Assembly (NCBI RefSeq): GCF_002128425.1
Contig: NZ_NESS01000003.1
Span: 62,001 to 126,000 of the forward strand
DNA from: Gottfriedia acidiceleris
GTDB lineage: Bacteria; Bacillota; Bacilli; Bacillales; Bacillaceae_G
Reading direction: 5' to 3'
DNA: 64,000 nt
Position numbers and translations under genes: made by a program. This document shows, in pieces, positions 7,879 through 59,742 of this stretch. Positions within the stretch are counted from its first letter, which is position 1; each line of letters starts with the position of its first letter. The notes beneath the pieces were generated by a model. The model worked only from the letters and a program-made list of their open reading frames with translations. It ran no database searches and was not told where the DNA came from.

Positions 7879-8682
7879 CTACATATAAATCCCTCCATTT
7901 ACTTGTAAAACGGCTCCATTCACATAATTTGACATTGGAGAAGAAAGATAATAGATGGATTCTGCAGCTTCTTCAATTGTCCCTGATCTCTTCTGGGGAA
8001 TCATTGCTGTTAATTGTTCACGCACTTTTTTAGGGATGCCAAGTGGAATGTCGCTGATGAATTCCCCTTCTTCTTTTGATTGGGTCAACCTAGTATTCAT
8101 AACCCCAAAAGCGATTGCATTGCAATTGATGTTAAACTGTCCCCATTCTTTTGCTACTGTCTTAGTTAAGCCAAAAAGACCTGCCTTAGCTGATGCATAA
8201 TTTGCTTGTCCAACATTTCCTGTCAATCCAGCTATAGAAGATACATTAATGATTTTTCTGTAATGGACAATGCCTTGTTCCATCTCTTTTTTTGCTTCAT
8301 TTCTCATATAAGGTGCTGCTTCTCTTATAAGTCGGAAAGGTGCAACTAAAAGAACTTCCATTATTTTTCGAAATTGTTCATCCGTCATCTTGTGTACAAG
8401 CCCGTCCCATGTAAATCCTGCATTATTGACCAAAATATCTAAACGTCCAAAAGAATTCATAGTCTTTGCTACGATCTTAGAAGGGAACTCGTTTTCCGTT
8501 ATATCTCCTGAAATGCCAATGGCTTCTCCCCCTGATTCAACAATTTTAGCTCTTACCGTTTCTGCAAGACCTTCATCTAAATCAGATAAAACAACTTTTA
8601 CGCCTTTTTTTGCTAATTTTTCTGCTGTCGCTCTACCAATTCCTCTTCCTGCCCCTGTAATAATGGCTACATTTCCTTCCAA
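7879..8682 (-). CDS. SDR oxidoreductase (FabG-like 3-hydroxyacyl dehydrogenase)
   Basis: A 267-residue classical short-chain dehydrogenase: TGAGRGIG cofactor motif at residues 10-17, NNAG, catalytic Ser in NVSSIAG and YASAK (Tyr, Lys), ending in VNGGIYM. It starts with TTG, with AGGAGG upstream. Next to an enoyl-CoA hydratase and downstream of an acyl-CoA ligase, it probably performs the 3-hydroxyacyl-CoA step of beta-oxidation. An insert of about eight residues (NEAKKEMEQGIV) before the catalytic Ser is longer than in FabG and resembles the SDR partners of acyl-CoA pathways. Substrate is inferred from context. Confidence 0.88.
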   Translation of the reverse strand: MEGNVAIITGAGRGIGRATAEKLAKKGVKVVLSDLDEGLAETVRAKIVESGGEAIGISGDITENEFPSKIVAKTMNSFGRLDILVNNAGFTWDGLVHKMTDEQFRKIMEVLLVAPFRLIREAAPYMRNEAKKEMEQGIVHYRKIINVSSIAGLTGNVGQANYASAKAGLFGLTKTVAKEWGQFNINCNAIAFGVMNTRLTQSKEEGEFISDIPLGIPKKVREQLTAMIPQKRSGTIEEAAESIYYLSSPMSNYVNGAVLQVNGGIYM

Positions 8683-8757
8683 TTCGATCGTCCTCCTTCA
8701 ATTATTTGATAAATCGACCTCAATTTGTCTCTTTATTAAAGTAGTATTTTATATTTT

Positions 8758-9534
8758 TCATTCATTATTAATCATTCCATGTTTGCCTTGCCCTTGTACG
8801 AAACGCTTAGCACCTTTCATGGATTCACCACTTTGTACAACAGTCATTCCTAAGGTGAACTCTAACTGCATTGCCTTCTCAAAATCTAGGTCAAATCCTT
8901 CATAAACTGCTTTTCGGTCATTTCTCATACATAATTGAGGATATTCAGCAATTTGAGCAGCAAGTTTTTCAGCTTCTTCCTTCACAGTGCCGACTTCTAC
9001 GATTCGATTAGCAAGCCCCATAGAGAGTGATTCCTCTGCTCCAACTGGTCGACCAGTTAAAATCAGATCGAGAGCACGGCTCATACCGATTAAGCGAGGT
9101 AATCGTTGTGTTCCACCATCTATCAGTGGTACACCAAAACGACGACAAAAAACTCCGAATATTGCGTCTTTTTCAACCACTCTAAGATCGCACCAAATTG
9201 CTAACTCTAACTCTCCAGCGACGGCATGACCCGATACTGCAGCAATTACAGGTTTTGATAAGTTCATTCGACTTGGACCCATAGGACCATCTTTCGACAT
9301 ATCTATCTCCAAACTATTGCCATCTTCTAATGAGAAAGCTTTAAGATCGGCACCTGCACAAAACGTTCCTCCCTTTCCATACAATACAGCTACATGTAGA
9401 TTTTCATCATTTTCAAAAGCACGAAATGCTTCGGCAAGTTGTCGTGCTGTCTCACTGTCAACTGCATTCCTAACATTAGGTCGATTAATTTGAATCGTAC
9501 AAACTTTATCTTTTTTTTCTACTAATACCTTCAT
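8758..9534 (-). CDS. enoyl-CoA hydratase/isomerase (crotonase family)
   Basis: A 258-residue crotonase. It shows the N-terminal NRPNVRNAVDSE segment, the CoA-binding/oxyanion loop GGTFCAGADLKAF and the second oxyanion segment AAVSGHAVAGELELA. The position of the first catalytic Glu in this last segment is conserved (GELELA), but the canonical hydratase second Glu is not evident (RFGVPLIDGGTQRL). An isomerase or atypical hydratase is therefore possible. The ATG at 9534 follows GAGG by nine bases. It is likely a beta-oxidation step after fatty-acyl-CoA formation. Confidence 0.87.
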   Translation of the reverse strand: MKVLVEKKDKVCTIQINRPNVRNAVDSETARQLAEAFRAFENDENLHVAVLYGKGGTFCAGADLKAFSLEDGNSLEIDMSKDGPMGPSRMNLSKPVIAAVSGHAVAGELELAIWCDLRVVEKDAIFGVFCRRFGVPLIDGGTQRLPRLIGMSRALDLILTGRPVGAEESLSMGLANRIVEVGTVKEEAEKLAAQIAEYPQLCMRNDRKAVYEGFDLDFEKAMQLEFTLGMTVVQSGESMKGAKRFVQGQGKHGMINNE

Positions 9535-9621
9535 TAACAATTACCTCACCAATCTATATTTAAATACTTACATTTAAGTCATTTATCATCTGATCCATTC
9601 TCTCTTTAATACTCCGAATCT

Positions 9622-9654
9622 AAAAAATGATCCCCTAATTGAAGATCATTTTTT
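9622..9654 (-). terminator. terminator after DUF202 gene
   Basis: AAAATGATC pairs with GATCATTTT across an 11-base loop with T runs on both sides. It could end transcripts in either direction and separates DUF202 from the enoyl-CoA hydratase gene. Confidence 0.6.
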
Positions 9655-9685
9655 TGCAAATTCTTAATAATAAGGATTTAGAAGC

Positions 9686-10075
9686 TTAAAATAATCCCCA
9701 AACATCTAAATAATAAACACCGAAAATAAGAAAAATAAGTATTGAAGCTACTGATAAATAGACAACCAATATCCTTGAAAATTTAAACGTTTGATGATTA
9801 ATATCATTTCCCTTGATAAAATAACTGATCGTTGAAATGATTAAAGCAAAAATTCCAACTATAATCGATGATAATCCAATGATCTTCGATAATACGCCTC
9901 CTATATTTGCATTAGAAGCCAGAGTTGAAAAATGAAGATTGGTGATTAAAAAGCCAACCCCCATAATGGTTATACTTGTTCTTACCCAAGCAAGATAAGT
10001 TCTTTCATTTGCTAAATGCTGTTGTATATATTTAGAATCAATTGTTTCTTTTTGCTTTTCTAATACATTATTCAT
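9686..10075 (-). CDS. DUF202 (YidH-type) membrane protein
   Basis: A 129-residue protein whose first third carries the family signature QQHLANERTYLAWVRTSITIMGVGF, followed by two more membrane helices. Three membrane segments are predicted. The ATG at 10075 has AGAGG seven bases upstream, better than the ATG at 10081. Function of DUF202 is unknown. A paralogue sits at the equivalent place in cluster B (53423), so it is probably a working part of the uptake or oxidation system. Confidence 0.87.
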   Translation of the reverse strand: MNNVLEKQKETIDSKYIQQHLANERTYLAWVRTSITIMGVGFLITNLHFSTLASNANIGGVLSKIIGLSSIIVGIFALIISTISYFIKGNDINHQTFKFSRILVVYLSVASILIFLIFGVYYLDVWGLF

Positions 10076-10152
10076 ATTCATACCTCTGTTTCTCTATCTT
10101 TCTGCAAAATCAGCTATAAAATAATTTAATCGGAATATCTATATGAATCTCA

Positions 10153-11424
10153 TTAAAGATTCACTAGCTTATTATCCTTTCTTGTTGAAACTTGTTGATT
10201 TCGGTTTCCGAAAAGGAATACTAATAGCGCTACAATTACCAAAGCAATTGACATTCCATAAATTGCGATACTATATCCACCTGCTGCATTTGCACCAGAA
10301 TTTTGAATAAGTTTTCCAAAAATAATCGGAGTAATAATTCCCGATGAAGTCATTATTCCAAAATACGTTCCTGTCATAACTCCTCTTCGCTGTGGGAGTA
10401 TACTAACTACAATAGTTGGGCTAAGTGTGTTTATAGTAATGACAAGTGTATTTACTAAAGAAAATACGATAATAATTGAAGCAGATGCATTCATAAGTGG
10501 ATACAATGAGTACAAAATTCCTGCTAGCAAAACAATAATAGCAGAAAATAAAATGCGCGATTTCCATAAACTTTTTGTTTTTTTGTATAAACGGTCTGAA
10601 ATGATAGATAGTACCATTGCTAAAACAGCTCCTATTAATCCAGAAATAGCAATAACTGATGCTGACTGTTGTTCAGATAACCCTTTTACTTTTATTAAAT
10701 ATGAAGGATTAAACGTAAGTCCAAAGACAATGAATGTGTAAGCAATAAATGCAATTAAAGTTGTAAAGATAAAAATAGGAGATCTTAAAGCTTTCCAAAC
10801 ATCTTTTCTATTACTCTCTTTTATGTTTCTGATTGTACTAACTTCTTCTTCCAAAGTAACAGTTGGTTTCATTCTTCCTAACCAAAGCCAACAAATGAAC
10901 CAGACAAAGCTAAAAATACCAGAAATAAAAAATGCCTGTCTCCAACCATAATTTGATATTAAAGAAACGATAATAGGAGCTGTAACAGCTATCCCAACAA
11001 CATTTCCAAAATTAATAATGGATATGGCGAACCCACGTGATTCTGGCTTAAACCATTTACTTATATGACTAATTGCAGTTGCCAGAAATGCTCCTTCTCC
11101 TGCACCTAATAATATTCTACTGATAATTAGAACTGGTAAACTTGATGCAAACAAAGCCAAAGATTGTGCGATTGTCCAAACAATTGCCATAATAGCAATT
11201 GATTTACCAGTACCAATACGATCTGATAATGCACCACCTACTATACCAAATATTGAAAATAACCAATAAAAGCTACTACCTAAAATACCAAACTCTGTAG
11301 AGGTTAAATTCAAATCTTTCGTAATATGAATTCCAGCTAAACCTAATATTGATTTGTCAGCAAAATTAATAATAGCCATAATAAAAAGTGAAAATAAAAT
11401 GATCCATTTCGCCCAACTTTTCAT
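10153..11424 (-). CDS. MFS transporter, anion:cation symporter type
   Basis: A 423-residue carrier with 12 predicted helices. It has NFADKSILGLAG in helix 1, the MFS loop GALSDRIGTGKS between helices 2 and 3, and GAGEGAFLATAISHISKWF in helix 4, as in ACS-type organic-anion symporters. A clear AGGAG precedes the ATG. The neighbouring alkyl sulfatase, which lacks a signal peptide, makes import of an anionic sulfate ester the most economical role. A paralogue in cluster B has the same helix-1 motif. Confidence 0.9.
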   Translation of the reverse strand: MKSWAKWIILFSLFIMAIINFADKSILGLAGIHITKDLNLTSTEFGILGSSFYWLFSIFGIVGGALSDRIGTGKSIAIMAIVWTIAQSLALFASSLPVLIISRILLGAGEGAFLATAISHISKWFKPESRGFAISIINFGNVVGIAVTAPIIVSLISNYGWRQAFFISGIFSFVWFICWLWLGRMKPTVTLEEEVSTIRNIKESNRKDVWKALRSPIFIFTTLIAFIAYTFIVFGLTFNPSYLIKVKGLSEQQSASVIAISGLIGAVLAMVLSIISDRLYKKTKSLWKSRILFSAIIVLLAGILYSLYPLMNASASIIIVFSLVNTLVITINTLSPTIVVSILPQRRGVMTGTYFGIMTSSGIITPIIFGKLIQNSGANAAGGYSIAIYGMSIALVIVALLVFLFGNRNQQVSTRKDNKLVNL

Positions 11425-11486
11425 CCAAACTCCTGCCTCTCAACAAATCTATCCTTTTTCTATAATCCTTAATAAACATTCTTTTA

Positions 11487-11533
11487 GAAAAACACCTGCT
11501 CAATCTATTTTTTCGAATATGATTGAGCAGATG
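11487..11533 (-). terminator. terminator between sulfatase and MFS genes
   Basis: On the minus strand CATCTGCTCAATC pairs with GATTGAGCAGGTG, followed by T5. The strong 13-bp stem right after the sulfatase gene implies reduced read-through into the MFS gene or a separate promoter for it. Confidence 0.8.
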
Positions 11534-11574
11534 CTTATTGTAAAAATTGAGCCATTTATTATTTTTTTTGTTAA

Positions 11575-13479
11575 TTAAGGAGTTACGATATTTATATAGC
11601 GGTCGAACTCATCTAAAAGTGATAAAAATTCATTCAATTTTGTATGGTCACCTGAAATGATTAATTTTCCTGCTCCAACTGCTTTTTCCGGAGAAAGAAG
11701 ACCAAGTAAAGTTCCATAAAATGCAAATTGGTCACTTGTTAAAGAAACATCTGCATTGTCATCTAACTTATTAGCTTTGGAAAATAAAACAGAATTTTCT
11801 AAATATAAACTATATAGCTGGTTAGAGTCTGATAATGTTACATTTATCGTTATTTTTCTACCCTCTGCTTTTGGACCGTTTAATTTAACGGCTATAAATT
11901 TTAAGAACTCGTTGACTGGCATATTCTTAATAACACCTGAGACATCTAATGGGGCATTATCTTTGTTAATTCCATATCTTAGTTCAGATGCTCCAACAAG
12001 ATAAATATTACGCCAATTAGCTGATTCAGCTTGATACCCTAATTGTTCAAATGAATCTGCTAATAAATTTTTAGCTTCTGAATTTTCTGGGTCGGCCATT
12101 ACAACATTTTTTAATACTTGGGCAACCCAACGATATTCACCTTTTTCAAAATCAGCTTTTGCTTGTCTCAAAATATTTGCTGCTCCACCCATGTATTCTA
12201 CATATTTTCGGCCGGTTTCCACTTGTGGTAATGGATCTAGATCGGAAGGATGAGCACTATAATAACCTAAATAATAATTGTAAACACCCTTTGAATTATG
12301 TTTTAAAGTTCCATAATACCCACGATTTCCCCAGTAAGTATCCAATTCTTTTGGAAGTTTAATTATTTCAGCTATCTCATCCATCGTATAACCATGATTG
12401 GCTAAGCGCACCGTCTGATCGTGCATATATTTATATAAGTCGCGTTGCAGTTTTAAATGTTTGATTGCATTATCTTTCTCCCATACAGGCCATGCATGGA
12501 TCATTAGTAATGCATCGATCTCTTCATTTTCAAATAATTCGATTGTTTTATCGAGTGAATTAGCCCAATGTAATGCATCTCGCGTTTTTGCTCCTCTTAC
12601 TGTATAAATTTGATGCATTAATTTATTGGCATTCTCTGATACAAATAATGCTTTGTAATCTTCTATATAAAAGTGCATTTCAGCTGGTGCTTCTGTATTT
12701 GGCGTTAATAAAAACTTAAATGTTACACCATCAACTTCCATCGATTGGATTTCATTTTCTATTTCAACATTTGGTAACTGAAAACTCATAGTACCTGATC
12801 CCATTGTTGGTCCAATACCTACTGATACAGAGCCTTTTGTACCGTCCGGTAAATCTTTCCCAAACTGATACTCTGCACGACGCGCCATAATCGTACCCAA
12901 AAGTGCATTCTCACTTAACGCTTCTTCTGTAAAATATTGAGGAACTATAATCGGAATAGTAGGATTTTCAGCATATTTAAGCACAGCTTGAATACCGCCA
13001 AAATGATCAGCATGACTTTGACTGATTATTATGGCTGTTACTGGCTTTTGTGGTCGATGCTTATAATATAATTCCATAGCGGCTTTAGCTGTTTCATTAC
13101 TTCCTAAAGCATCAACTACAATAACTCCCTGTTCTCCTTCAATAAAAAAGTTAGTTACATAAGATTGTCCACGAACTTGATATACTCCTTCTACAACTTC
13201 AAACAAACCAGATATAGCCTGTAATTGTGCATTTCTCCATAAACTAGGGTTCACTGTCTCAGGAGCAGTGTCATTTAAATAGTTTAACTGTTCAATATCC
13301 CAAATGACTTGCCCAGAATCATCTTTAATAATCTTTGCTTCTAGTGGTGCAATAAATCCTCTGTTTGCATCCAAGAAGTCTTGCCTATCATCAAAATTTA
13401 AAGAATCATATACTGCCAAATTTGCCTTTTTTGTAAAAGAAGTAGCGGACATTGATTGAGTTAAAATGTTATTTGTCAT
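11575..13479 (-). CDS. alkyl sulfatase, metallo-beta-lactamase fold (SdsA/BDS1-like)
   Basis: A 634-residue type III alkyl sulfatase. An N-terminal MBL domain holds SQSHADHFGG (Gln154, His156, Asp158, His159). TEAPAEMHFY and VSENAN supply acidic metal ligands, and IHAWPVW a later His. A helical dimerisation region follows, and a C-terminal SCP2-like domain (about 510-634). The expected first zinc His is Gln. Such enzymes cleave primary alkyl sulfates such as SDS to alcohol and sulfate. No signal peptide is seen, so it is cytoplasmic. The start at 13479 is chosen because the upstream ATG at 13491 lies inside GGAGG. Length is normal for the family. Confidence 0.88.
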   Translation of the reverse strand: MTNNILTQSMSATSFTKKANLAVYDSLNFDDRQDFLDANRGFIAPLEAKIIKDDSGQVIWDIEQLNYLNDTAPETVNPSLWRNAQLQAISGLFEVVEGVYQVRGQSYVTNFFIEGEQGVIVVDALGSNETAKAAMELYYKHRPQKPVTAIIISQSHADHFGGIQAVLKYAENPTIPIIVPQYFTEEALSENALLGTIMARRAEYQFGKDLPDGTKGSVSVGIGPTMGSGTMSFQLPNVEIENEIQSMEVDGVTFKFLLTPNTEAPAEMHFYIEDYKALFVSENANKLMHQIYTVRGAKTRDALHWANSLDKTIELFENEEIDALLMIHAWPVWEKDNAIKHLKLQRDLYKYMHDQTVRLANHGYTMDEIAEIIKLPKELDTYWGNRGYYGTLKHNSKGVYNYYLGYYSAHPSDLDPLPQVETGRKYVEYMGGAANILRQAKADFEKGEYRWVAQVLKNVVMADPENSEAKNLLADSFEQLGYQAESANWRNIYLVGASELRYGINKDNAPLDVSGVIKNMPVNEFLKFIAVKLNGPKAEGRKITINVTLSDSNQLYSLYLENSVLFSKANKLDDNADVSLTSDQFAFYGTLLGLLSPEKAVGAGKLIISGDHTKLNEFLSLLDEFDRYINIVTP

Positions 13480-13535
13480 AAGAACCTCCATGAAATGATA
13501 TAAATTCGTTTTTATTAGAAAAATAATCTATTAAA

Positions 13536-15053
13536 CTAATTAACTTTTACTTGTTCTACATTTAAAGCTCTTTTTAAAATCTTACCTGTACTATTCTTAG
13601 GTAATTCTTTCTTAAATTCTATTTGTTTAGGTAGCTTGTACTTTGCAAGCTTGTCCTTGCAGAAATGTAGGATGTCGTTCTCCGTTATACTTTCATCATT
13701 CGATACAACGAAAGCCTTTACGATTTCTCCGTAATCTTTATCAGTTATTCCTAATACAGCTACTTCAACTATCGCTGGATGTTGATAAATAACTTCCTCT
13801 ACTTCTCTAGGATATACATTGTATCCGTTTACAATAATCATGTCCTTTATTCGATCAACAATGTAGATATATCCATCATTATCCATTTTTGCTAAGTCAC
13901 CAGTATAAAACCAATCATTTTTAATGGCATTAGCTGTTGCCACAGGCATTCCAAGATAGCCAATCATGACATTTGGACCTTTTACTATTAATTCACCTAT
14001 TTCACCTCTTGGAACTTCATTTCCAAATTTATCGACAACCTTATTTATTACACCTGGGATATCTACTCCGACAGACCCAATTTTTCTTATTCCTTTTATA
14101 GGATTAAATGCCGTTACAGGAGCTGTTTCTGAAAGTCCGAATCCTTCAGCAATAATCGTCTTATATTTTTCTTCAAAACGTTGAAGTAATTCAACTGGCA
14201 TCGATGCTCCACCTGAAAAACATACACGCAAAGATGTGAAATGCTCAGCTGAATAGTCTTTTAATTGTAATAAAAAGTTAAACATCGTTGGAACGCCTGC
14301 AAATAATGTCACTTTCTCATTAAAAATTGTTTCAATGACTTCAATAGGATTAAATTTTTGAACAATTACGATATTAGCTCCACTCAAAATTGGTGTATTT
14401 ATACAAACTGTCATGCTAAATACATGGAACATTGGAAGGGCAGCTAACATGCGATCGTATTCTTTGAACTCGACTAGCTTAGCAACTGACTCTGCATTTG
14501 ATGCCATATTTCTGTGACTTAACATAGCTCCTTTTGGTCTTCCTGTTGTTCCAGACGTATATAAAATAACAGCAAGATCTTCTTCCATCACTAACGGAAT
14601 TTCATTGTTTTTTGAGTTATTTACAGTCAACTGCTCCCAATTGAATTCAGCTTTTTTAGCTCCGACATAGTAAAGCAATCCTATCTGTTTTAATTCTAAT
14701 TTTATAGAATCAATGATTGGTTCCATTGTAAAATTTGCGATGACAGCTTTTGCTTGGCTATTCGATAAAATATATGAAATTTCGTCTTTCGTAAAGATTG
14801 GGTTAATCGGTACTACTACACCCCCTGCACGAAGAATTCCATAATAAGCGATGACAAATTCCGGACAATTCCCTAGTGCCAAGGCTACTTTATCACCTTT
14901 TTTGATTCCATCTTGTACTAAACTCGATGCAACACATTCAACTTGTGAATATAATTCACTATACGTTATATTTTTATGTTCAAATGTAATTGCATTACGA
15001 TTTGGATATTTTTCTGCACTTTTTCTTAAACTTTCATTTAAATTCCAATTCAT
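13536..15053 (-). CDS. long-chain acyl-CoA ligase (AMP-forming)
   Basis: A 505-residue ANL enzyme. It has the P-loop ILYTSGTTGRPKGAMLSH, the A5 motif GFGLSETAPVTAFNP, YTGDLAKMDNDGYIYIVDR, and the C-terminal KNSTGKILKR with the catalytic Lys. It makes acyl-CoA from a carboxylic acid, ATP and CoA. The ATG at 15053 follows AGGAGGAG; the ORF could be extended upstream but only through that site. It lies between the sulfatase and alcohol dehydrogenase genes, fitting activation of the fatty acid that comes from the alcohol. It is closely related to the ligase of cluster B. Confidence 0.92.
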   Translation of the reverse strand: MNWNLNESLRKSAEKYPNRNAITFEHKNITYSELYSQVECVASSLVQDGIKKGDKVALALGNCPEFVIAYYGILRAGGVVVPINPIFTKDEISYILSNSQAKAVIANFTMEPIIDSIKLELKQIGLLYYVGAKKAEFNWEQLTVNNSKNNEIPLVMEEDLAVILYTSGTTGRPKGAMLSHRNMASNAESVAKLVEFKEYDRMLAALPMFHVFSMTVCINTPILSGANIVIVQKFNPIEVIETIFNEKVTLFAGVPTMFNFLLQLKDYSAEHFTSLRVCFSGGASMPVELLQRFEEKYKTIIAEGFGLSETAPVTAFNPIKGIRKIGSVGVDIPGVINKVVDKFGNEVPRGEIGELIVKGPNVMIGYLGMPVATANAIKNDWFYTGDLAKMDNDGYIYIVDRIKDMIIVNGYNVYPREVEEVIYQHPAIVEVAVLGITDKDYGEIVKAFVVSNDESITENDILHFCKDKLAKYKLPKQIEFKKELPKNSTGKILKRALNVEQVKVN

Positions 15054-15190
15054 TAAAATTTTCTCCTCCTGATGATACATACCATTGGTAGACTACACTG
15101 TAGTGATTTACTAAATTAGTGAGATTAAATGAATTTGTAATACTAATAATTAAATTCTTCCATCTATATACACAAAATTTGAATATAATT

Positions 15191-15220: not shown

Positions 15221-15238
15221 AGTAACTATAAATAAAAA

Positions 15239-16447
15239 TTATGAAATTACTAAGCCAGAACCTGCAACTTCATTTGAAACTTTTGCTATTACTTCAGGTG
15301 GAATTTTGAAGAATATTCCGCAAGGATCACTATGAACCATCGCTACTATGTATGCCATATTATCAATATTCACCTCAAAATCAGCAAATGTACTAGGAAG
15401 ACCAACTTTTTCACGCAAATTACGGATGAATAAAACGACTTCTGCAAGGCACTCTTCTGGTTTTTCTGGCAAATCTTTTAGTCCTAGCGCCTGTGCAAAA
15501 CCATGAATTCGTTTCAAATAATATGGTGCAAGTGATTCCATTACATTTGGTAATAACACTGCATTTGCAAGTCCATGAGGAATTCCAAATTTTGCTCCAA
15601 ATACATGCGCTATATTATGAACAGGAATTGCATTAACTGAAAGACTAAAAGCAGAAATTGCCATCGAACTAGCCATTAACATATTTGATCGTGATGCAAG
15701 GTTATGGCCTTCATGAACAGCAGTAGGTAAATTGTCTACAATCATACGAATTGCTTGAAGAGCATATGCATCCGTCATTGGATTCGACTGTGGTGAGAAA
15801 TAAGCCTCAATCGCATGAGTTAATGCGTCAAATCCTGTAAATGCTGTAATTTTTGGTGGTAAACCAACTGTAAGCTCAGGGTCTAAAATCGCCATATCAG
15901 GGCTAATAAATGTATTTAGGATATTCGTTTTAATTCCTACCTTTTCATTTAATACTACAGCGATTGGAGACACTTCCGCACCAGTTCCAGCTGTTGTTGC
16001 GATTGCAACGTGTGGAATTGGAATAAACTGAGCTTCTGGCCAAAATTCCATAACATTACCTACAAGAAGTGCATCACGAATATCATGAACTTTATTATGA
16101 AGCATCCATTTAATAGCTTTAACTGTGTCTAATACACTTCCGCCTCCAACCGCAATTAATGAATCTCCATTACATTCTTTAAAGAACTTAGCTCCGCGGT
16201 TTATAATTTCACCTTTTGCATCCTGTTCAATGTCCTCAAAAACTCCTACTAGCTGTACTGCACTAGGAATATCTTCAAATAGTTCCTTAATTTTGTCTGT
16301 AATTCCCGCCTGAGTAATTCCTTTATCAACATAAAGAACTGCTCTTTTACCGCCAAGTCCTTTTATCATTTCTGGTAACATTGAACGAGCTCCAGCCCCA
16401 CTGTTTACAACAGTACGAACCGAAAACTGAAAAAATGATGTTATCAT
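15239..16447 (-). CDS. iron-containing alcohol dehydrogenase
   Basis: A 402-residue group III dehydrogenase. It shows the nucleotide-binding GGGSVLDTVKAIK, GTGAEVSPIAV, and the metal residues in GFDALTHAIEAY and HVFGAKFGIPHGLANA. It oxidises primary alcohols with NAD. AGAAGG precedes the ATG. Placed between sulfatase/ligase and aldehyde dehydrogenase genes, it should convert the long-chain alcohol released by the sulfatase to aldehyde. The real chain-length preference is not visible. Confidence 0.9.
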   Translation of the reverse strand: MITSFFQFSVRTVVNSGAGARSMLPEMIKGLGGKRAVLYVDKGITQAGITDKIKELFEDIPSAVQLVGVFEDIEQDAKGEIINRGAKFFKECNGDSLIAVGGGSVLDTVKAIKWMLHNKVHDIRDALLVGNVMEFWPEAQFIPIPHVAIATTAGTGAEVSPIAVVLNEKVGIKTNILNTFISPDMAILDPELTVGLPPKITAFTGFDALTHAIEAYFSPQSNPMTDAYALQAIRMIVDNLPTAVHEGHNLASRSNMLMASSMAISAFSLSVNAIPVHNIAHVFGAKFGIPHGLANAVLLPNVMESLAPYYLKRIHGFAQALGLKDLPEKPEECLAEVVLFIRNLREKVGLPSTFADFEVNIDNMAYIVAMVHSDPCGIFFKIPPEVIAKVSNEVAGSGLVIS

Positions 16448-16506
16448 GGGATCACCTTCTCTTTTCTATTATTTTTTTATTATCGTAATTTTTAAATCTA
16501 GTTTTT

Positions 16507-47230: not shown

Positions 47231-47303
47231 AAAGATGATTCCCTCCATAGCTTTTAGTGTGTTACTAAATTGAATTTACTTTAAATTTAAGTGTATTCCT
47301 TTT

Positions 47304-50141: not shown

Positions 50142-50237
50142 GTAATAGTCTCTCCCTTCCAATTTTGTATTATTTCCTTGCAATTTCCTGTTCTTCTCAA
50201 TAAATAATGAATTTTTGACTAGCATTACTTTTTTGAT

Positions 50238-52358: not shown

Positions 52359-52406
52359 TTTCAATGTCTCCTTTAATTATGCATAGATTCAATTTTCTAC
52401 TTATGT

Positions 52407-53369
52407 TTACTTAACATCTTTAGCACACCGAAATCCCATATTTCCAGTAGAACTATCAGGTGTATTAGAACTACGAGCAGCTACTCGATAACGATTACAG
52501 TAAGATTCATTACATAGATAGGATCCTCCTCGAATTACTTTTGAAGTACCGTATGGTATACCTTTAGGATTATCTCTAGTGTCATTAATATGATAAGTTG
52601 CACTGAACCAATCAGAACACCATTCCCATACATTCCCTGAAACATTATATAAACCATAATTATTAGGAGGAAACGATTTAGCTGGAGCTGTACCTTTATA
52701 GCCGTCTAATACTTGATTATTATTTGGGAATTCACCTTGCCATATATTTGCAAAATGATGATTATTAGGAAGTAATTCATCTCCCCAAGCATATTTCTTT
52801 TGTTCTAAACCTCCCCGAGCAGCATACTCCCACTCTGCTTCAGTCGGTAGCCTTTTTCCTGCCCAGTTGCAATATGCTGAGGCATCGTTCCATGATACAT
52901 GAACTACAGGATGATCATATCTATTATCAATTGTTGAATCCGGTCCTTCAGGGTGTTTCCAGTTCGCCCCATCCACAACCAACCACCACGGAGTCTGTTG
53001 GACAAGTTGTTTAACTTTTAATCTTGTTTCACTAGACAAAAGCAAATGAAACACAAAGGACCATCCATAAATTTCTGCCTCAGTTTTGTAACCTGTATCA
53101 GATATAAATTCTTCAAACTGAGAATTAGTTATGGCACATGCATCTATGTAGAACGGATTCACCTTTATTTTACGTATTGGTCCTTCACCATCAGCTTTGT
53201 AACCTTCCGGATCATCAGTCCCCATTAAAAATTCTCCGCCTGGAATGTAGATACTATTTTCATCAGAAATTTTATGATCGCTTTTAACAACGCTTTGTCT
53301 AGAATATTGAGAAAAGCTTGATTTTTGATTACTTGGAGAACAGCATCCAAATTTTTTTTGTAGTTCCAT
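52407..53369 (-). CDS. formylglycine-generating enzyme (sulfatase maturase)
   Basis: A 320-residue FGE with the full fold: YIPGGEFLMGTDDPEGY, CAITNSQFEEFI, VHVSWNDASAYCNWAGKRLP, LYNVSGNVWEWCSDW and RGGSYLCNESYCNRYRVAAR. The copper-binding Cys286 and Cys291 keep the x4 spacing of proven FGEs (human 336/341), and NTPDSSTGNMGFRCA follows. With O2 it converts the sulfatase Cys to formylglycine. The adjacent Cys-type sulfatase is the obvious client. No signal peptide, so the reaction is cytoplasmic. Confidence 0.95.
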   Translation of the reverse strand: MELQKKFGCCSPSNQKSSFSQYSRQSVVKSDHKISDENSIYIPGGEFLMGTDDPEGYKADGEGPIRKIKVNPFYIDACAITNSQFEEFISDTGYKTEAEIYGWSFVFHLLLSSETRLKVKQLVQQTPWWLVVDGANWKHPEGPDSTIDNRYDHPVVHVSWNDASAYCNWAGKRLPTEAEWEYAARGGLEQKKYAWGDELLPNNHHFANIWQGEFPNNNQVLDGYKGTAPAKSFPPNNYGLYNVSGNVWEWCSDWFSATYHINDTRDNPKGIPYGTSKVIRGGSYLCNESYCNRYRVAARSSNTPDSSTGNMGFRCAKDVK

Positions 53370-53422
53370 TCAAATCACTCTCTTTAAGAAGTATTTAGTT
53401 GCAAGTAGGTTTCCTACGTCGT

Positions 53423-53815
53423 CTATTTCGCGAATAATAAAAAAGAAAGATACATAAGAATCATGAAGATTAATAGAGAAAATAGAATAGAAACAAAAAC
53501 TATCGATTTATTTGAAGGTATATAAATACCTTTCTCAATTTCTTTTCTCTTCTTTGAATATTGAATCGTTGATAAAATCCCTGTTATAAAACCAACTACA
53601 CATGCGTAAATGCCAAGAAATATTACTAATAAATTAATATACTTATTTGAACTAATCGTAATCGTAAAATGCAATGATGTTGTTAGGAACCCCACGCCAG
53701 TGATAGATATCGCAGTCCTTATCCAGGCTAAAAATGTTCTTTCGTTAGCTAGATGTTGTTGCGCATACTTCACATTTTGTCCATTTAATCCTTGCATCTT
53801 TGTTAGAGCTTCCAT
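53423..53815 (-). CDS. DUF202 membrane protein, cluster B
   Basis: A 130-residue paralogue of the DUF202 protein in cluster A, with the signature QQHLANERTFLAWIRTAIS, GVGFLTTSLHF and two further helices. AGGAG precedes the ATG. It stands between the maturase and the acyl-CoA ligase. Its recurrence beside sulfatase genes is the main hint to function; the biochemical role is unknown. Confidence 0.88.
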   Translation of the reverse strand: MEALTKMQGLNGQNVKYAQQHLANERTFLAWIRTAISITGVGFLTTSLHFTITISSNKYINLLVIFLGIYACVVGFITGILSTIQYSKKRKEIEKGIYIPSNKSIVFVSILFSLLIFMILMYLSFLLFAK

Positions 53816-54029: not shown

Positions 54030-55544
54030 TTATGTGCTTCCTACAAATGTACGTAAAGCTCTTCTTAAAATTTTCCCAGTGCTATTCTTAGGGAGTTCCG
54101 TCAAAATCTCAATTTCTCTAGGATGCTTATACTTCGCTAATCTTTCTTTTGCAAACTCATTAATCTCTTCAACTGATACATTTACATCGTTACAAACGAT
54201 AAACGCCTTGATACTTTCTCCATATTGATCATCTGGAATTCCAATTACAGCTGCTTCAACTACTCTAGGATGCTGATACAGTACCTCTTCAACCTCTCTA
54301 GGATAAACATTATAGCCACCAACTATAATCAAATCTTTTATTCTATCAAGGATATAAAAATAGCCATCTTCGTCCATTTTTGCTAAGTCCCCAGTGTAAA
54401 ACCAACCATCTTTTAAAGAAGTAGATGTCGCCTCTGGCATTTCTAAATAGCCAAGCATTACATTCGGTCCTTGAACAACTAATTCTCCAATTTCACCGTT
54501 AGGAACTTCTTTACCATTCGCATCAACCACTTTATTAATTACATTAGGTATATTTAAGCCTATGGAACCTGGTTTTCTAATACCATTTAAAGGATTAAAC
54601 GCAGTTATAGGAGAAGTTTCTGATAGACCATATCCTTCTAATATTTCGACTTCATATTTCTCTTGGAAGCGATTAAGTAATTCAATAGGCAATGAAGCAC
54701 CACCTGAAATGCATGCCCGAATTGATGAAAAATCTTTTGCTGTAGCATCCTGTAATTGAGACATAAAACTGTACATTGTAGGAACACCTGCAAACAAAGT
54801 AGCTTTTGCTTTTACTATCGTATCTACTACTTCAGTAGGATTAAATTTAGGAACAATTATAATGTGTGCTCCACTTTTAATTGGAGTATTGATACAAACT
54901 GTCATACAAAACACATGAAACATTGGTAATGTCGCGATAATACGATCATATTCAGTGAACTTCACAAGTTCAGCAAATGATTCAGCATTTGAAACCAAAT
55001 TATGATGAGAAAGCATTGCCCCTTTTGGTTGCCCTGTTGTACCTGAAGTATACAGAATAACAGCTAGATCATTTTCATATATAGGCGGTGCAACAAATAC
55101 GTTATTAGAATTTTGTATAAGCTTTTCCCAGCTATTGTCAGATTCAAGTTCTTGCGTGTAAAAAATCATTTCCAAACTATCTAATTGATTAACTACAGAC
55201 GATAAGGTAGATTTTATGGCACTACTAGCGATTACTGCCTTAGCTTTACTGTTTGAAATAATGTATGAAATTTCATTAGTAGTAAAGATTGGATTAATTG
55301 GTACTACTGAGGCACCAGTACGAAGAATCCCATAATACGCAGTGATAAATTCAGGACTGTTCCCAAGTAGCAATGCAATTCGATCACCTTTTCGGATACC
55401 TTTTGTATATAATCCTGATGCAACTTTATCAACCATTGAATCTAGTTCTTTATACGTTACACTCTGATTTAAAAATGTATATGCATATCGATAAGGATAC
55501 TTTTCGGCACTATTTATCAAATTATTATTTAAATTACAACTCAT
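54030..55544 (-). CDS. long-chain acyl-CoA ligase, cluster B
   Basis: A 504-residue AMP-forming ligase with ILYTSGTTGQPKGAMLSHHN, GYGLSETSPITAFNPLNG, YTGDLAKMDEDGYFYILDR and KNSTGKILRR. It is closely similar over its whole length to the cluster A ligase, including the unusual MFHVFCMTVCINTPI segment. ATG at 55544 is chosen, nine bases after AAGGAG. It should activate the fatty acid made by the aldehyde dehydrogenase. Its start is 39 bases after the SCP2 gene. Confidence 0.92.
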   Translation of the reverse strand: MSCNLNNNLINSAEKYPYRYAYTFLNQSVTYKELDSMVDKVASGLYTKGIRKGDRIALLLGNSPEFITAYYGILRTGASVVPINPIFTTNEISYIISNSKAKAVIASSAIKSTLSSVVNQLDSLEMIFYTQELESDNSWEKLIQNSNNVFVAPPIYENDLAVILYTSGTTGQPKGAMLSHHNLVSNAESFAELVKFTEYDRIIATLPMFHVFCMTVCINTPIKSGAHIIIVPKFNPTEVVDTIVKAKATLFAGVPTMYSFMSQLQDATAKDFSSIRACISGGASLPIELLNRFQEKYEVEILEGYGLSETSPITAFNPLNGIRKPGSIGLNIPNVINKVVDANGKEVPNGEIGELVVQGPNVMLGYLEMPEATSTSLKDGWFYTGDLAKMDEDGYFYILDRIKDLIIVGGYNVYPREVEEVLYQHPRVVEAAVIGIPDDQYGESIKAFIVCNDVNVSVEEINEFAKERLAKYKHPREIEILTELPKNSTGKILRRALRTFVGST

Positions 55545-55582
55545 AACCATCGTCTCCTTCTTAGAACTAACTATCAATAGTT

Positions 55583-56008
55583 TTAAACTCCATCAGGAAA
55601 TTCCGATTCAACAAAAGTCGCAGCTTCTACCATGTATTTTGATGCATTCGTATACTTTGCAAGCTTCATAATATTCCCTCGTTCTAATTTTGTTTTACGA
55701 GTCATTAGTGCAGTAGTGGAATCCAATTTTTTGTCTAAAATTTTCTTCCAAACTTGTACATCTCCACTAACGATGTAAGGTACTGACTCAATATCTGCTG
55801 GTTCTGCAACACGTGCTTCACGACATTCACCATGCCATAAGTCTACATAAACTAATCGATCTTCATTTAGTCCAACCGAAGGATCGGCGTTCATTTTCAT
55901 GATTAATGGCCACTCCCATTTTGCACCATATTTCCTGAACATTTCACTTTTATTAAGCTCATCTTTCCACTGCTCTGCCCAATCTTGAGTAAATACTTGT
56001 AATCCCAT
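55583..56008 (-). CDS. SCP2 sterol-binding domain protein
   Basis: A 141-residue stand-alone SCP2-type domain (LIMKMNADPSVGLNEDRLVY, GDVQVWKKILDKKLDSTTAL, LERGNIMKLAKYT). This fold makes a hydrophobic tunnel for lipids or acyl-CoA. In cluster A a related fold is the C-terminal domain of the MBL sulfatase, where it is thought to hold the alkyl chain. A separate chain in cluster B could deliver lipid substrates to the sulfatase or ligase. AGGAGG precedes the ATG. Confidence 0.75.
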   Translation of the reverse strand: MGLQVFTQDWAEQWKDELNKSEMFRKYGAKWEWPLIMKMNADPSVGLNEDRLVYVDLWHGECREARVAEPADIESVPYIVSGDVQVWKKILDKKLDSTTALMTRKTKLERGNIMKLAKYTNASKYMVEAATFVESEFPDGV

Positions 56009-56045
56009 TTTCTACTCCTCCTAATTAAAAGATTCTATTGCTAAC

Positions 56046-56068
56046 CCTCCCTTTAATTAAGGAGGGCT
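56046..56068 (-). terminator. hairpin between cupin and SCP2 genes
   Basis: CCCTCCTTAATT pairs with AATTAAAGGGAGGG. A weak T tail on the minus strand suggests partial termination or a processing site. Confidence 0.4.
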
Positions 56069-56091
56069 TTATTATTTTTCTTATGAATAAA

Positions 56092-56547
56092 TTAATATTT
56101 CGATAGATCCTTAAATTCTAATCCATGTACATCACAATGTTCTTTATACATTTCTAAAGCGGATACCCAGTTTAATTGAAAAAGTGGGTTACCATCAGTA
56201 TCTTGGAATTCTAGTAAGCCATCTAGAATATTAAGTGCGATAACATCTTCCTTACTATGCATTACAGGTTGATGAAGTGATCCTGCTGGTTCAAAAATGA
56301 CATCTCCAGCTTTGGCAATCCATTCTTCCCCTTCATAATTCCATGCGCCTTGAATTGTATAAACAATGACTGTCCCATGGTGATAATGTGGAGGTAGTAC
56401 TGCGCCTTCTGAAGCTTTTATTAAAGCGAAAAATTGACCACTTATTGGATTTACTTTTAATATTTTGATTTCAGCATTTTCAACCCATGGAATCCATGGT
56501 AATTCTTCAGGATTCATGTAAACTGTTTCTAATAATGGATATGACAT
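56092..56547 (-). CDS. cupin protein, 2,4'-dihydroxyacetophenone dioxygenase-like
   Basis: A 151-residue single-cupin protein: GAVLPPHYHHGTVIVYTIQG (metal His residues), WNYEGEEWIAKAGDVIFEP and SLHQPVM. The sequence pattern matches the family named after 2,4'-dihydroxyacetophenone dioxygenase, a non-haem iron enzyme that cleaves C-C bonds. Many family members have unknown substrates. ATG at 56547 follows AGAGGG. In cluster B it might oxidise a sulfatase product; that is inference. Confidence 0.75.
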   Translation of the reverse strand: MSYPLLETVYMNPEELPWIPWVENAEIKILKVNPISGQFFALIKASEGAVLPPHYHHGTVIVYTIQGAWNYEGEEWIAKAGDVIFEPAGSLHQPVMHSKEDVIALNILDGLLEFQDTDGNPLFQLNWVSALEMYKEHCDVHGLEFKDLSKY

Positions 56548-56726
56548 AAAAAATCCCTCTTTCATTTGTTAGTTTTATATTATTTTAACTTTATTTTTGT
56601 AATTTTCTGATAATAAGAAATACGATATAACCTTACTTTTATTGACGAAACGCATTCTATTAATTTTAGAGACCTATAATTAATTAGTTACACCTCCCTA
56701 TTATTCATTGCCTTATAACAAATCGA

Positions 56727-58130
56727 CTATTTTATATTTTGAACACTCGGCATCGTATATAATCCATCTAATAGAATTTGTTTAGGTTCATACAATCTCA
56801 TTACAAGGACAAAGTTGCCTGTAGGTGCAGGAAGCCAATTTGATTCATGCCCTTCCGGTATTGAGTTCTGGATATATAAATCTAGTGAACCATCATTATT
56901 GTATTTAAGTCCTTCTGTACGATCACCAATTGAATAACGATTAATTGGATTGTCTACAAAGAGTTGATCTGGTCCATATAAAGATAACGACCAAAAGCCA
57001 TTTACTGGTAGCATTTGTTTTTTATCGATATGAATAACATATTGGTGATCTCCACTTAGTGGTTTTCCATCACTATCAAATGTAGTACGTGAATATATCG
57101 CTTCGATTGGAAGATGAGAACCTAATCCAAATGCTGCAATTGACGCTCTATTGAGGTAGTTCGTACCGTACGTACCAATATTTTTATTAAAGACGGTCCA
57201 ATGATTGCTCTCTGTACCTACATTTGATAGAGATTTCAGCATAATTTCTCTTGCATCTTTCAGTGCACGTGTTAAACCGGCCATAGTTGCAGAATCGTTA
57301 CTTCCTTGAAATCCTTTATTAGGATCGATTCCAATCAGTTTAAATTGAGATAACATAGACTCATCTCTTGATGGACCTGGAAATAATTTCATCGATCGAG
57401 TCATGATATCAAAGTAGCGTGCTGGATCATTGAAGTCACTTTCTGAAATAGTCGTTTTTAAATCGATTAATGGTTTTGCTTGTTTTTTATTTAAAGGTGC
57501 CAATGTATATTTGTTTTGAATAGCATATACATTTGCTAAATCCTTTTCTTCCTTGACTAATGTACGTCCAAGCAGCCAAACCATATTAGTAGGAGATTGA
57601 ATAACTTTCGTACCCTTTGCAAATTTCCCTTTCCAATTCGGTCCTACAATAACATATTTAGCTGCATTTGTATCTTTCAAACGTGTACCAATGTAACGAA
57701 ATGTGTTTGTATAAGCGTCCAAAAACTGGAATGAAAAATATCTACCTGGCTCTGCTTTTGGAATACTAAAAACTACTGGTCCTTTCGATAAATCCAACCA
57801 AGCTTGTGAATACAATGTATCGTTATTCGGAGCAACAATGTCTCTATCACTTGGATCTGCTAATCTTCTCATATGAGAAAATGTGTTCAAAGGAGTTTTT
57901 TGCATAGCTATTTGCATTGTTTTAACCATGTCTACGAGAGGAAATCCATATAGATATGCCTGGATTCCAATGCTATACGCTAAATTCTCACGATACTGAT
58001 CTTGAGGTGCCACGACAGGATCAATAGTTTGTGTTGCTGTTGAAGGTGTGCCGGCAAATACGCTCCCTGTAAAAATAGACAAGGTGGCTAGCACTCCTAC
58101 TACATTAATTAATAGTTTTTTTCTTTTCAT
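56727..58130 (-). CDS. secreted DUF1254/DUF1214 protein
   Basis: A 467-residue protein with a signal peptide (MKRKKLLINVVGVLATLSIF, cleavage near AGT). An N-terminal DUF1254 domain follows (about 60-190: AYLYGFPLVDMV, APNNDTLYSQAWLDL). The C-terminal DUF1214 domain (about 340-450) holds NGFWSLSLYGPDQLFVDNP, NRYSIGDRTEGLKYNNDGSL and SNWLPAPTGNFVLVMRLY. The function is unknown. It is likely extracytoplasmic and the first gene of cluster B. GGAAAGGGG precedes the ATG. A frameshifted paralogue ends the same cluster. Confidence 0.9.
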   Translation of the reverse strand: MKRKKLLINVVGVLATLSIFTGSVFAGTPSTATQTIDPVVAPQDQYRENLAYSIGIQAYLYGFPLVDMVKTMQIAMQKTPLNTFSHMRRLADPSDRDIVAPNNDTLYSQAWLDLSKGPVVFSIPKAEPGRYFSFQFLDAYTNTFRYIGTRLKDTNAAKYVIVGPNWKGKFAKGTKVIQSPTNMVWLLGRTLVKEEKDLANVYAIQNKYTLAPLNKKQAKPLIDLKTTISESDFNDPARYFDIMTRSMKLFPGPSRDESMLSQFKLIGIDPNKGFQGSNDSATMAGLTRALKDAREIMLKSLSNVGTESNHWTVFNKNIGTYGTNYLNRASIAAFGLGSHLPIEAIYSRTTFDSDGKPLSGDHQYVIHIDKKQMLPVNGFWSLSLYGPDQLFVDNPINRYSIGDRTEGLKYNNDGSLDLYIQNSIPEGHESNWLPAPTGNFVLVMRLYEPKQILLDGLYTMPSVQNIK

Positions 58131-58445
58131 GAAATATAACCCCTTTCCTTAAACGTTCTTATTTTTCCATAAGATGGATAGGATCTACGTAACCATTTTC
58201 TCTCTCAATATCTAATAAAAACAATCACCCCCCTTTATGTTTGAATAATCAGATTATTCGAGTTAATGTTACTACAGCTTTAGTTAATTTAATATATAAT
58301 TATAGTATCGTTAAAGACTATCTAAGTATGGTTAGAAAATATTAAACAATCAAAAAAATAGTTTGCATTTTTCAAAGTATAAACCTCAAAACAAATTCTA
58401 TTACCGTAAAAAAAACAAAAAGCTCAATCATAAGACTGAGCTTCA
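58131..58445. other. intergenic region upstream of cluster B
   Basis: No gene is seen. It should hold the cluster B promoter, but I cannot pick a convincing -35/-10 pair. A terminator (AAGCTCA/TGAGCTT with a T-rich tail on the minus strand) lies at 58420-58441. Confidence 0.45.
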
Positions 58446-58601
58446 CTAATTTGAATTCATTGGCTTAATTGGACTTTTAGAATTCATACAGGGAAGAAAA
58501 AAAGAAGTATTTTGAGCATCAATATGAGGAGAATCAAGTGGAACTAGTCCATATTGAGGAGGTCCATAAGCGAAGTTTGATTCAGTTGAAATAGAAAGAG
58601 T
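58446..58601 (-). pseudogene. short C-terminal coding relic
   Basis: An open stretch of 51 codons without start codon reads STESNFAYGPPQYGLVPLDS, PHIDAQNTSFFLPCMN and a stop, followed at once by a terminator hairpin. Composition is like spore-coat or surface proteins. A family is not recognised. Confidence 0.35.
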
Positions 58602-58747
58602 TTACTTTAAAGTGCAGGAATAATACCAAAAAAACGTTATCCTGATATATTTTTCCTCATAAAAAACTTTATCGGTATAATCCACCTGATTAATAGATTT
58701 AATTCTCTTGCATTCCTAGTTTTAGTTTTTAGGATCTCACATGGAGT

Positions 58748-58792
58748 CAAAAAGTGAGCCTTGCTGCGAATCGAGCAAGGCACTTCTGTTTT
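58748..58792 (-). terminator. terminator of cluster B LysR gene
   Basis: On the minus strand AGTGCCTTGCTC pairs with GCAAGGCTCACT, followed by T5. Confidence 0.75.
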
Positions 58793-58860
58793 TATAAATT
58801 CAACTCAAAAATTTAGACTAATACAAAATTTCGGATTAATCCTAATCCTTTTTTAAACTA

Positions 58861-59742
58861 TTAAAATTCTTCTTGTAAATGCCTTAAAAATTTTTCGGAA
58901 GTAATGGAATATGGGGTATTACGAGAATAAATATACCAAAAAGGATTTGGATAGTATTTTTCGATTTTCAGTGGAATAGCAATTATGTCTCCTTTCAAAA
59001 CAAATGGACTATATTTGGCAAGATCGGATGATAACGTTATAGCTAGTCCTTCTTTAACTGTCCTAGAAATAATATCAATATTTTTAGATAAAAAAGAGAC
59101 ATTTGCATGTTTAAAAAATAAATCAAAAGGGGTTTTTATATGATCAGATTCGTAAAGAATAAAATTTTCATTCTTTAGTAATTCTGGCGTTAGTACACTA
59201 TAATTTGCAAGTGGAGAATCTTGACTAACAAGAACACAAAGACTTCCATCATATAATTTCTCATATACTAAGTCCTGTTCATTTTTTAATTTCTCATCAG
59301 AAATAGTTAGAAAGCCTATATCATATTTACCAGATTTAATATCAACTAAAACATCATCGGGATTATTTTCATGAATGTTAATACTGATATTTGGAAACTT
59401 TTTTTTGAAACTTAACAATTTGTCAAAAATTAAATAAGAAATACTTGGAACACAAGATATATATAATTTCGCATTGAGTTTACTTGTACGATCACTTACA
59501 ATGGTTTTTAACTCTTTATATTTTACGACTATTTCTGAGGCTTTTATGAATACCTCTTTGCCTTCCTCCGTTAAAATCGTCCCCGTCTTGTGGCGTTTAA
59601 ATAATTTTATTCCCCATTCTTTTTCTAATTGTGTAATTGTTTGACTAATTACAGAAGTAGAAATATGAAGATTTTTTGCAGCCTTTGTAATTGATTTTTC
59701 TTTTACAACTTCTACAAGATAGTTTAGTTTTTCAATATACAT
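58861..59742 (-). CDS. LysR-family regulator, cluster B
   Basis: A 293-residue LysR protein with winged helix at 1-60 (SITKAAKNLHISTSVISQ) and a PBP2-type effector domain. It is in the same direction as cluster B, 730 bases upstream of the first gene, and resembles the cluster A LysR. It probably regulates cluster B, though its distance and separate terminator make it an independent unit. AAAGGA precedes the ATG. Confidence 0.88.
   Translation of the reverse strand: MYIEKLNYLVEVVKEKSITKAAKNLHISTSVISQTITQLEKEWGIKLFKRHKTGTILTEEGKEVFIKASEIVVKYKELKTIVSDRTSKLNAKLYISCVPSISYLIFDKLLSFKKKFPNISINIHENNPDDVLVDIKSGKYDIGFLTISDEKLKNEQDLVYEKLYDGSLCVLVSQDSPLANYSVLTPELLKNENFILYESDHIKTPFDLFFKHANVSFLSKNIDIISRTVKEGLAITLSSDLAKYSPFVLKGDIIAIPLKIEKYYPNPFWYIYSRNTPYSITSEKFLRHLQEEF

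Follow-up and report, generated by a model that had tools for sequence, protein, structure and literature searches.

How does one genome come to hold two gene clusters that look like versions of one pathway, each built around a different class of sulfatase? The window analysed here, a stretch of 64,000 nucleotides from Gottfriedia acidiceleris (C23:62001-126000, in a 4.77-Mb genome of 45 contigs), carries cluster A (7879-19299), with an alkyl sulfatase of the metallo-beta-lactamase (MBL) type, and cluster B (45894-59742), with a formylglycine (FGly) sulfatase. The many GerA and GerB genes of the genome are in keeping with a Bacillaceae-like spore former. We favour, at a probability of about 0.6, the view that A and B work in parallel as operons for scavenging carbon from sulfate esters and that each was put together from the same gene families, with no copying of a whole cluster followed by exchange of one part. 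By their sequences, the ligase and the carrier of the two clusters are truly related; the remaining shared genes look as if each cluster had recruited them separately from common families. If this is right, one genome has two mechanistic sulfatase classes serving parallel import-and-oxidise routes. The new points are a variant sulfatase subfamily in A and an association of sulfatase loci with gerA-type germinant-receptor genes.

Gene content and a proposed route

Gene and Pfam calls place the two clusters where the initial annotation had them, on the minus strand except for the LysR gene of A. Family and structure-chain matches bear out the MBL-type alkyl sulfatase in A and, in B, the formylglycine sulfatase with a true maturase. 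The genes are as follows.

Cluster A
7879..8682, minus: short-chain dehydrogenase (SDR; Pfam adh_short_C2)
8758..9540, minus: enoyl-CoA hydratase (Pfam ECH_1)
9686..10081, minus: DUF202 membrane protein (Pfam DUF202)
10153..11424, minus: major facilitator superfamily (MFS) carrier (Pfam MFS_1, trees)
11575..13491, minus: MBL alkyl sulfatase, QSHADH variant, N-terminus not signal-like (Pfam, phmmer, alignment)
13536..15080, minus: long-chain acyl-CoA ligase (family profiles, within-genome comparison, tree)
15239..16447, minus: iron-containing alcohol dehydrogenase (Fe-ADH; Pfam Fe-ADH)
16507..18024, minus: aldehyde dehydrogenase (ALDH), BADH/StyD-like (Pfam, NCBIfam)
18391..19299, plus: LysR regulator, divergent (Pfam, within-genome comparison, tree)

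Cluster B
45894..46964, minus: DUF1254/DUF1214 protein, C-terminal part of a frameshifted gene (family profiles)
46946..47248, minus: DUF1254 N-terminal part of the same split gene (family profiles)
47304..48707, minus: ALDH, MdlD-like (Pfam, NCBIfam)
48873..50225, minus: MFS carrier (Pfam, within-genome comparison, trees)
50238..52364, minus: formylglycine (type I) sulfatase, CSPTR motif, extra C-terminal beta-sandwich (Pfam, alignment, model)
52407..53369, minus: formylglycine-generating enzyme (FGE; Pfam, match to FGE chain)
53423..53815, minus: DUF202 membrane protein (Pfam)
54030..55577, minus: long-chain acyl-CoA ligase (Pfam, tree)
55583..56008, minus: free-standing SCP2-fold protein (Pfam, structure-chain match)
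56092..56565, minus: cupin protein (Pfam)
56727..58130, minus: DUF1254/DUF1214 protein, signal-like N-terminus by eye (Pfam)
58861..59742, minus: LysR regulator, apart from the LysR of B loci L015-L018 (Pfam, tree)

Cluster A reads 5' to 3' along the transcript as ALDH, Fe-ADH, ligase, MBL sulfatase, MFS, DUF202, hydratase and SDR. The transcription order of B, where every gene is on the minus strand, is DUF1254/1214, cupin, SCP2, ligase, DUF202, FGE, sulfatase, MFS, ALDH and a second DUF1254/1214 gene, broken by a frameshift near 46,950. The Fe-ADH, hydratase and SDR of A, and the SCP2, cupin and two DUF1254/1214 genes of B, lie beyond the set first listed. In 45894-59742 no gene for an alcohol dehydrogenase was found.

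Gene content, homology, active-site residues and co-occurrence are direct observations; from them we infer substrates, transport direction, enzyme location, the role of DUF202 and regulation. In the proposed route, the MFS carrier would import the intact sulfate ester, a cytosolic sulfatase would release alcohol and sulfate, dehydrogenases would convert the alcohol to the acid, and the acyl-CoA ligase would activate the acid for beta-oxidation; DUF202 may help dispose of the anion. The hydrolase would be the QxHxDH variant alkyl sulfatase in A and the FGly sulfatase with its own maturase in B, where the alcohol step would fall to an unlinked enzyme.

Cluster A resembles the SLF module (slfR-slfCHSL) of the Psychrobacter plasmid pP62BP1, which decomposes sodium dodecyl sulfate (SDS), also in E. 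coli (PMC10779009). Both combine an alkyl sulfatase, an alcohol dehydrogenase, an aldehyde oxidoreductase, a fatty acyl-CoA ligase and one regulator. Unlike SLF, A has a LysR and not an AraC/XylS regulator, a variant sulfatase without a signal-like N-terminus, and an additional MFS carrier, DUF202, hydratase and SDR; for SLF, hydrolysis of SDS is described as extracellular (PMC10779009). An SLF-type operon, with sulfatase, alcohol dehydrogenase, aldehyde oxidation and acyl-CoA ligase clustered, is thus present in A and not in B. Because of this likeness in make-up, A probably acts on a primary alkyl sulfate of medium or long chain.

The location of the enzymes was gauged by a crude hydrophobicity score of N-termini at mechanically chosen starts. 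The score is -0.1 to 1.1 for the variant MBLs, 0.6-1.1 for the FGly sulfatases and 1.7-2.7 for a second, canonical MBL type (MBL2; 55-58% identity). The first two would accordingly lack an export signal and the MBL2 type would have one. The clade of carriers to which the MFS of A and B belong accompanies the variant MBL at 12 of 13 loci and is absent from all 27 loci with a canonical MBL only, among which L147 covers just 3.2 kb. Seven FGly loci were scored for the carrier; it is present at three of the five genus loci with a sulfatase of at least 77% identity, and at L024 and L061, which were chosen after their matches had been seen. DUF202 occurs at 9/13 variant-MBL, 2/7 FGly and 0/27 canonical-only loci, and a ligase of at least 60% identity at 10/13, 3/7 and 1/27, respectively. 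The sole canonical locus with the ligase, L114 of genome G009, has an otherwise A-type set (LysR 75%, ALDH 91%, Fe-ADH 83%, ligase 72%) around a canonical MBL that bears a signal, and the 20 kb fetched showed no carrier and no DUF202. This is the pattern predicted if one enzyme acts inside the cell and the other outside: the natural swap between variant and canonical signal-bearing enzyme coincides with presence and absence of the importer.

Several observations weigh against these operons as proposed. One variant MBL locus (L143) is without this MFS, and two of the five close genus B loci (L017, L018) have neither the MFS nor the ligase of the kit. Outside the scored set, such an MFS was not seen in the neighbourhoods of L019-L022, four more distant FGly-sulfatase loci of the family (sulfatases 48-57%). 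Sixteen remote canonical MBL loci (L120, L148-L162; 35-41%) have no signal and no such carrier. When three plasmid MFS were added to the tree, the A/B clade gained two members without a sulfatase nearby, one in a beta-oxidation cluster and one beside ggt; the clade had at first seemed exclusive to sulfatase loci (17/17 rows), a claim these two members broke. To these are added the missing linked alcohol dehydrogenase in B, and the finding that the Psychrobacter strain with SLF cannot use alkyl sulfates as sole carbon source (PMC10779009). Finally, the A enzyme might be slow, mono-zinc or substrate-altered, since its Gln removes a residue that defines its family (see below).

The two sulfatases and the genes around them

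The B sulfatase has the C/S-x-P-x-R motif of S1 formylglycine sulfatases as CSPTR (residues 51-55), together with the active-site set. The type I residues D13, D14, C51, R55, K111, H113, H204, D310, N311 and K371 are invariant in nine sequences (the window's and eight relatives); when the set is widened to 23, all but C51 remain invariant, and C51 nearly so. Their roles we take to be those of the equivalent residues in PAS. A model built from the 23-sequence alignment (pLDDT 89.6) is nearest by Foldseek to 7all and PAS (1hdh, TM by target 0.87). The linked FGE scores 407.7 bits to FGE chain 8aru, its SYLCNESYC aligning with SYMCHRSYC; it has the fold and the paired cysteines, presumably catalytic, of aerobic FGE. 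The B enzyme thus shares with the PAS/AtsA-like group (S1_4) the CxPxR motif, the active-site set, the fold and a linked FGE, and differs from it in an extra C-terminal beta-sandwich (~548-705) and in its catabolic neighbours.

These relationships bear on what B degrades. PAS is placed in S1_4 by SulfAtlas (PMC5066984) and 7all is an arylsulfatase from a gut mucin-glycan study; the NCBIfam model that the ALDH of B fits best, though below cut-off, is that of a benzaldehyde dehydrogenase, and no alcohol dehydrogenase is linked. All this would suit a cluster that is not for alkyl sulfates: its ester would be an aryl, steroid-like or glycan sulfate, and the ligase would activate the acid that results. 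We consider this somewhat unlikely, as the ligase is sister to that of A, and the SCP2 protein and long-chain ligase suggest a hydrophobic chain. In the parallel operons that we prefer, the substrate of B would differ from that of A and is possibly a bulkier or branched ester. The modular sulfate-ester pathway first proposed for the two clusters therefore survives in part: one MFS subfamily does recur at variant-MBL and some FGly loci, and an alkyl-sulfate substrate is likely for A but not settled for B. No counterpart of cluster B was found in literature searches, in which most matches were judged by listing alone, and a search for DUF1254 together with sulfatase gave no match.

How much do A and B share beyond a list of families? 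By pairwise alignment, A-to-B protein identity is 62% for the ligase, 49% for DUF202, 36.5% for the MFS, 34% for LysR and, over part of the protein, 33% for ALDH. Within the genome, the ligase of A is closest to a copy on C5 (63%) and to that of B, the next being at 51%; in the tree, A and B ligases form sister clades (support 95/92), with the C5 copy next. The nearest genome paralogue of A's MFS is B's (36%), followed by two on C5 (the reverse direction was not searched), and A- and B-type MFS group together (97/97), apart from all six other MFS sampled in the genome. The other families behave differently. Three LysR genes (C23:388964, at 56%, C5:73007 and C23:298884) are closer to A's LysR than B's is, and in the tree B's stands apart from A's and from its counterparts at the B loci L015-L018. 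By best NCBIfam model, A's ALDH is matched to BADH and B's to MdlD, each match falling short of its cut-off. Of the three DUF202 genes in the genome, B's resembles the C5 copy (73%) more than A's, and a copy on a Priestia megaterium plasmid is closer still (76%).

The sister ligases, and an MFS in B that is the nearest in the genome to A's, are what duplication of a single cluster, with the sulfatase alone exchanged, would leave behind. Such an origin is nevertheless improbable: the ALDHs match different families, the LysR genes are not each other's nearest, DUF202 has closer relatives elsewhere, gene order differs, many genes are unshared, and in the MFS tree unrelated clusters already fall between A and B. 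The initial annotation, which called the clusters paralogous, holds for the ligase, more weakly for MFS and DUF202, and not for ALDH and LysR. The five families it listed are present in both clusters, but they are one kit only in part. Its statement that only the hydrolase was replaced is too strong; besides the differing ALDH, regulator and DUF202 and the alcohol dehydrogenase not linked in B, L019-L022 and the two sulfatase-free plasmid carriers speak against it.

An SCP2 domain common to A and B was also considered and dropped: B's free SCP2 protein gave no useful alignment with the fused SCP2-like domain of A's sulfatase and instead matches TT1886 and an SCP2 chain. Elsewhere in the genome, a third cluster (L013; C5 73-92 kb) combines the ligase paralogue (63%), a LysR gene, two related MFS, an esterase and two TauD dioxygenases. 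It was examined as a third sulfatase class (type II, AtsK-like), which was rejected; both TauD proteins match FrbJ and 7n7v only (phmmer, E<=0.001), not AtsK.

The A sulfatase is similar over its full length to YjcS, PSdsA, Pisa1 and SdsA1. Six solved chains score 507-596 bits, SdsA1 chain 2cfu at 507 bits full length by phmmer, and the YjcS copies in plasmid records are at ~44-45%. Family S3 is delimited by at least 30% identity to SdsA1 over ~600 residues and by HxHxDH (PMC5066984). Like SdsA1, YjcS, Pisa1 and SdsAP, the A enzyme has the dimerisation and C-terminal hydrophobic (SCP2-like) domains (Alkyl_sulf_dimr and Alkyl_sulf_C). Unlike them, it has QSHADH (QxHxDH) as zinc motif, and Gln in the sulfate-binding loop for a nearly invariant Asn, reported at 98% in S3 (SulfAtlas; PMC5066984). 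Among 41 homologues in fetched loci, a set that leaves out a split copy in G012, both Gln changes are in all 13 orthologues (window, L105-L113, L141-L143) and neither is in the other 28.

In SdsAP, two neighbouring histidines ligate one zinc (PMC5426288); these are taken to be the first two of the HxHxDH motif. GOB enzymes, which are B3 metallo-beta-lactamases, carry the same His-to-Gln change and are active (PMC10318434), so that by analogy an active but altered enzyme is expected in A. That the homologue is no longer a sulfatase and has become a binding protein or another hydrolase is the least probable of the alternatives: the occurrence of both substitutions in every orthologue and in none of the other homologues would fit it, but the active B3-Q lactamases, the retention of the remaining motif and much of the sulfate loop, the likeness to SLF, and the canonical enzyme in G009's A-type cluster argue otherwise. 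The variant metal site offers a ready test of the role of the first histidine in alkyl sulfatases.

That DUF202 disposes of the freed anion by sulfate export is a weak idea. DUF202 has sulfatase or sulfur-oxyanion genes in its neighbourhood in A, B, plasmid CP053689.1, E. coli (yidGH-yidJ), plasmids of Cytobacillus spongiae and Niallia Man26, and G098 (L228). A DsrE-like gene is ~6.5 kb from DUF202 on a Geobacillus plasmid (a record without annotation), and a weak rhodanese match ~6 kb from it in L234. No such genes were found near DUF202 of C5 or of the Priestia plasmid. Regions were fetched for 18 of 19 other DUF202 places (DUF202 was not re-found in L237 and L238), and by BLAST against a reference set L228 alone among 17 Bacillota regions has a clear sulfur-gene set, which argues against export. 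Of two matches in a literature search for DUF202 with sulfatase, one concerned DUF2023 or DUF2027.

Lone gerA-type genes beside sulfatase loci

In the window, broken gerA-type genes adjoin both clusters:

7022..7583, minus: broken gerA-type gene adjoining cluster A, two overlapping open frames (Pfam GerA, HMM)
60038..60730, minus: gerA-type gene, C-terminal piece, sulfatase-linked clade (Pfam, tree, HMM)

In relatives, intact copies (480-489 aa) flank cluster A (L105, L106, L107, L111, L112), and one flanks cluster B (L016). Others stand directly before the MBL2 sulfatase (L104, L116, L117, L118; broken in L115), with 81-84 bp from gerA stop to MBL2 ATG on the same strand at the three loci measured (L104, L116, L118). 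No GerB-like gene was found beside them by a one-seed search and BLAST (gerC was not searched), and we call them lone. In a tree of 37 GerA proteins they belong to one clade of 14 (100/100, stem 1.27). It includes two members without a sulfatase nearby, L137 (C41) and L169 (a control region), while L016:4868, L020, L023, L116:1, L117:19118, L118:183 and L119 fall outside it though in sulfatase regions. By hidden Markov model (HMM), the full-length members of the clade reach 797 bits or more and two partial members 371 and 396; no other row exceeds 356. This genome has two full-length members, one on C16 linked to MBL2 and the other on C41.

Any GerA match, whether of the clade or not, occurs in 15 of 21 sulfatase regions as against 2 of 14 shifted in-genus controls (Fisher p 0.0016), the window (64 kb) being counted once, under A, and the regions being non-independent by shared descent. 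By type, the counts are 7/11 for A, 6/6 for MBL2 (L119 having just a non-clade gerA ~7 kb off) and 2/4 for B; out-of-genus controls give 1/4. Several loci lie within the same few hundred kb, and regional clustering may explain part of the association. Order-wide, a clade-type match (E<=1e-125) is found in 23 of 397 genomes, a sample from which G012 is absent. The 19 matches of at least 660 bits are all from this genus, nine beside a sulfatase cluster and ten not; two of the ten (L185 in G015, L186 in G014) are at the MBL2 locus minus the sulfatase, with gerA and an amino-acid permease kept. No gerA was seen at L141-L143, the three closest clusters to A outside the genus.

The sequence TGAATA-N17/18-GATACTA, which is close to the sigma-G consensus, lies 41-43 bp upstream of six of seven A-type gerA copies, two of the six (L183, L184) being away from a sulfatase. 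Single-base shuffles reach the sigma-G-like score in 1.7-4.7% each, uncorrected. A sigma-G promoter for all clade genes was rejected, since the other 11 copies tested, including all six at MBL2 loci, did no better than shuffles.

A receptor role for the lone genes is possible. An orphan GerA protein, GerXAO of Clostridium botulinum Group II, is essential for germination in that one Clostridium; like the genes here, it comes from one gerA-type gene that is not part of a ger cluster (PMC5935672). The genes described here differ in forming a separate clade, partly beside sulfatase genes. It is a rather doubtful idea that a dedicated lone GerA clade on spores might sense sulfate esters or their alcohol products, coupling germination to food opened by the neighbouring sulfatase. 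If functional, the link would make gene neighbourhoods useful for predicting germinants. A six-term literature search on orphan GerA and a search for alkyl sulfatase with spore germination gave no match.

Some neighbours of these genes may be mentioned. A 2405-aa subtilase (19423-26640; PA, Fn3-like and bacterial Ig domains) is the direct neighbour of the cluster A LysR, and its relatives adjoin lone gerA genes too (L183, L188). In L183 (G010 C33 98-112 kb), a large subtilase is directly beside an A-type gerA, with cluster A ~40 kb away, whereas in L105 cluster A sits between such subtilase and gerA genes. At L104:1944-5606 (C16), a molybdenum hydroxylase large subunit (Pfam) with two smaller genes behind it lies a few kb from MBL2 and its gerA. 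The GerB-type spore permease of the window (41940-43043) is the top of 16 genome matches; no gerA was found within 15 kb, gerC not being searched.

Distribution and surroundings

Cluster A with the variant MBL is present in 10 of 13 genus genomes, its own included, and is modified in G245, G345 and G025; any such MBL (E<=1e-100) occurs in 34 of 397 genomes order-wide. A B-type sulfatase match (E<=1e-60) is found in 7 of 19 family genomes, and five of nine places reach at least 77% identity, again counting its own. Cytobacillus oceanisediminis has the B kit as FGE, sulfatase (77%), MFS, SCP2, cupin and ligase (53%). The B kit is otherwise rare, because few of 80 named relatives of the B sulfatase have the MFS (4), ligase (9) or DUF202 (2) nearby, and FGE is near 17 (BLAST against window proteins). 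In two metagenome-assembled genomes, of an actinobacterium (L054) and a Clostridiales bacterium (L088), the gene of an FGly sulfatase lies within ~6 kb of one for a homologue of the MBL sulfatase (40% and 34%).

Between the two clusters, 36351-37031 encodes an FGE-fold protein without the FGE cysteine pair. The window also holds an IstB-like ATPase (44110-44802) and a phage-type integrase (61485-62675) beside tRNA-Val, and with these the region may be a variable island.

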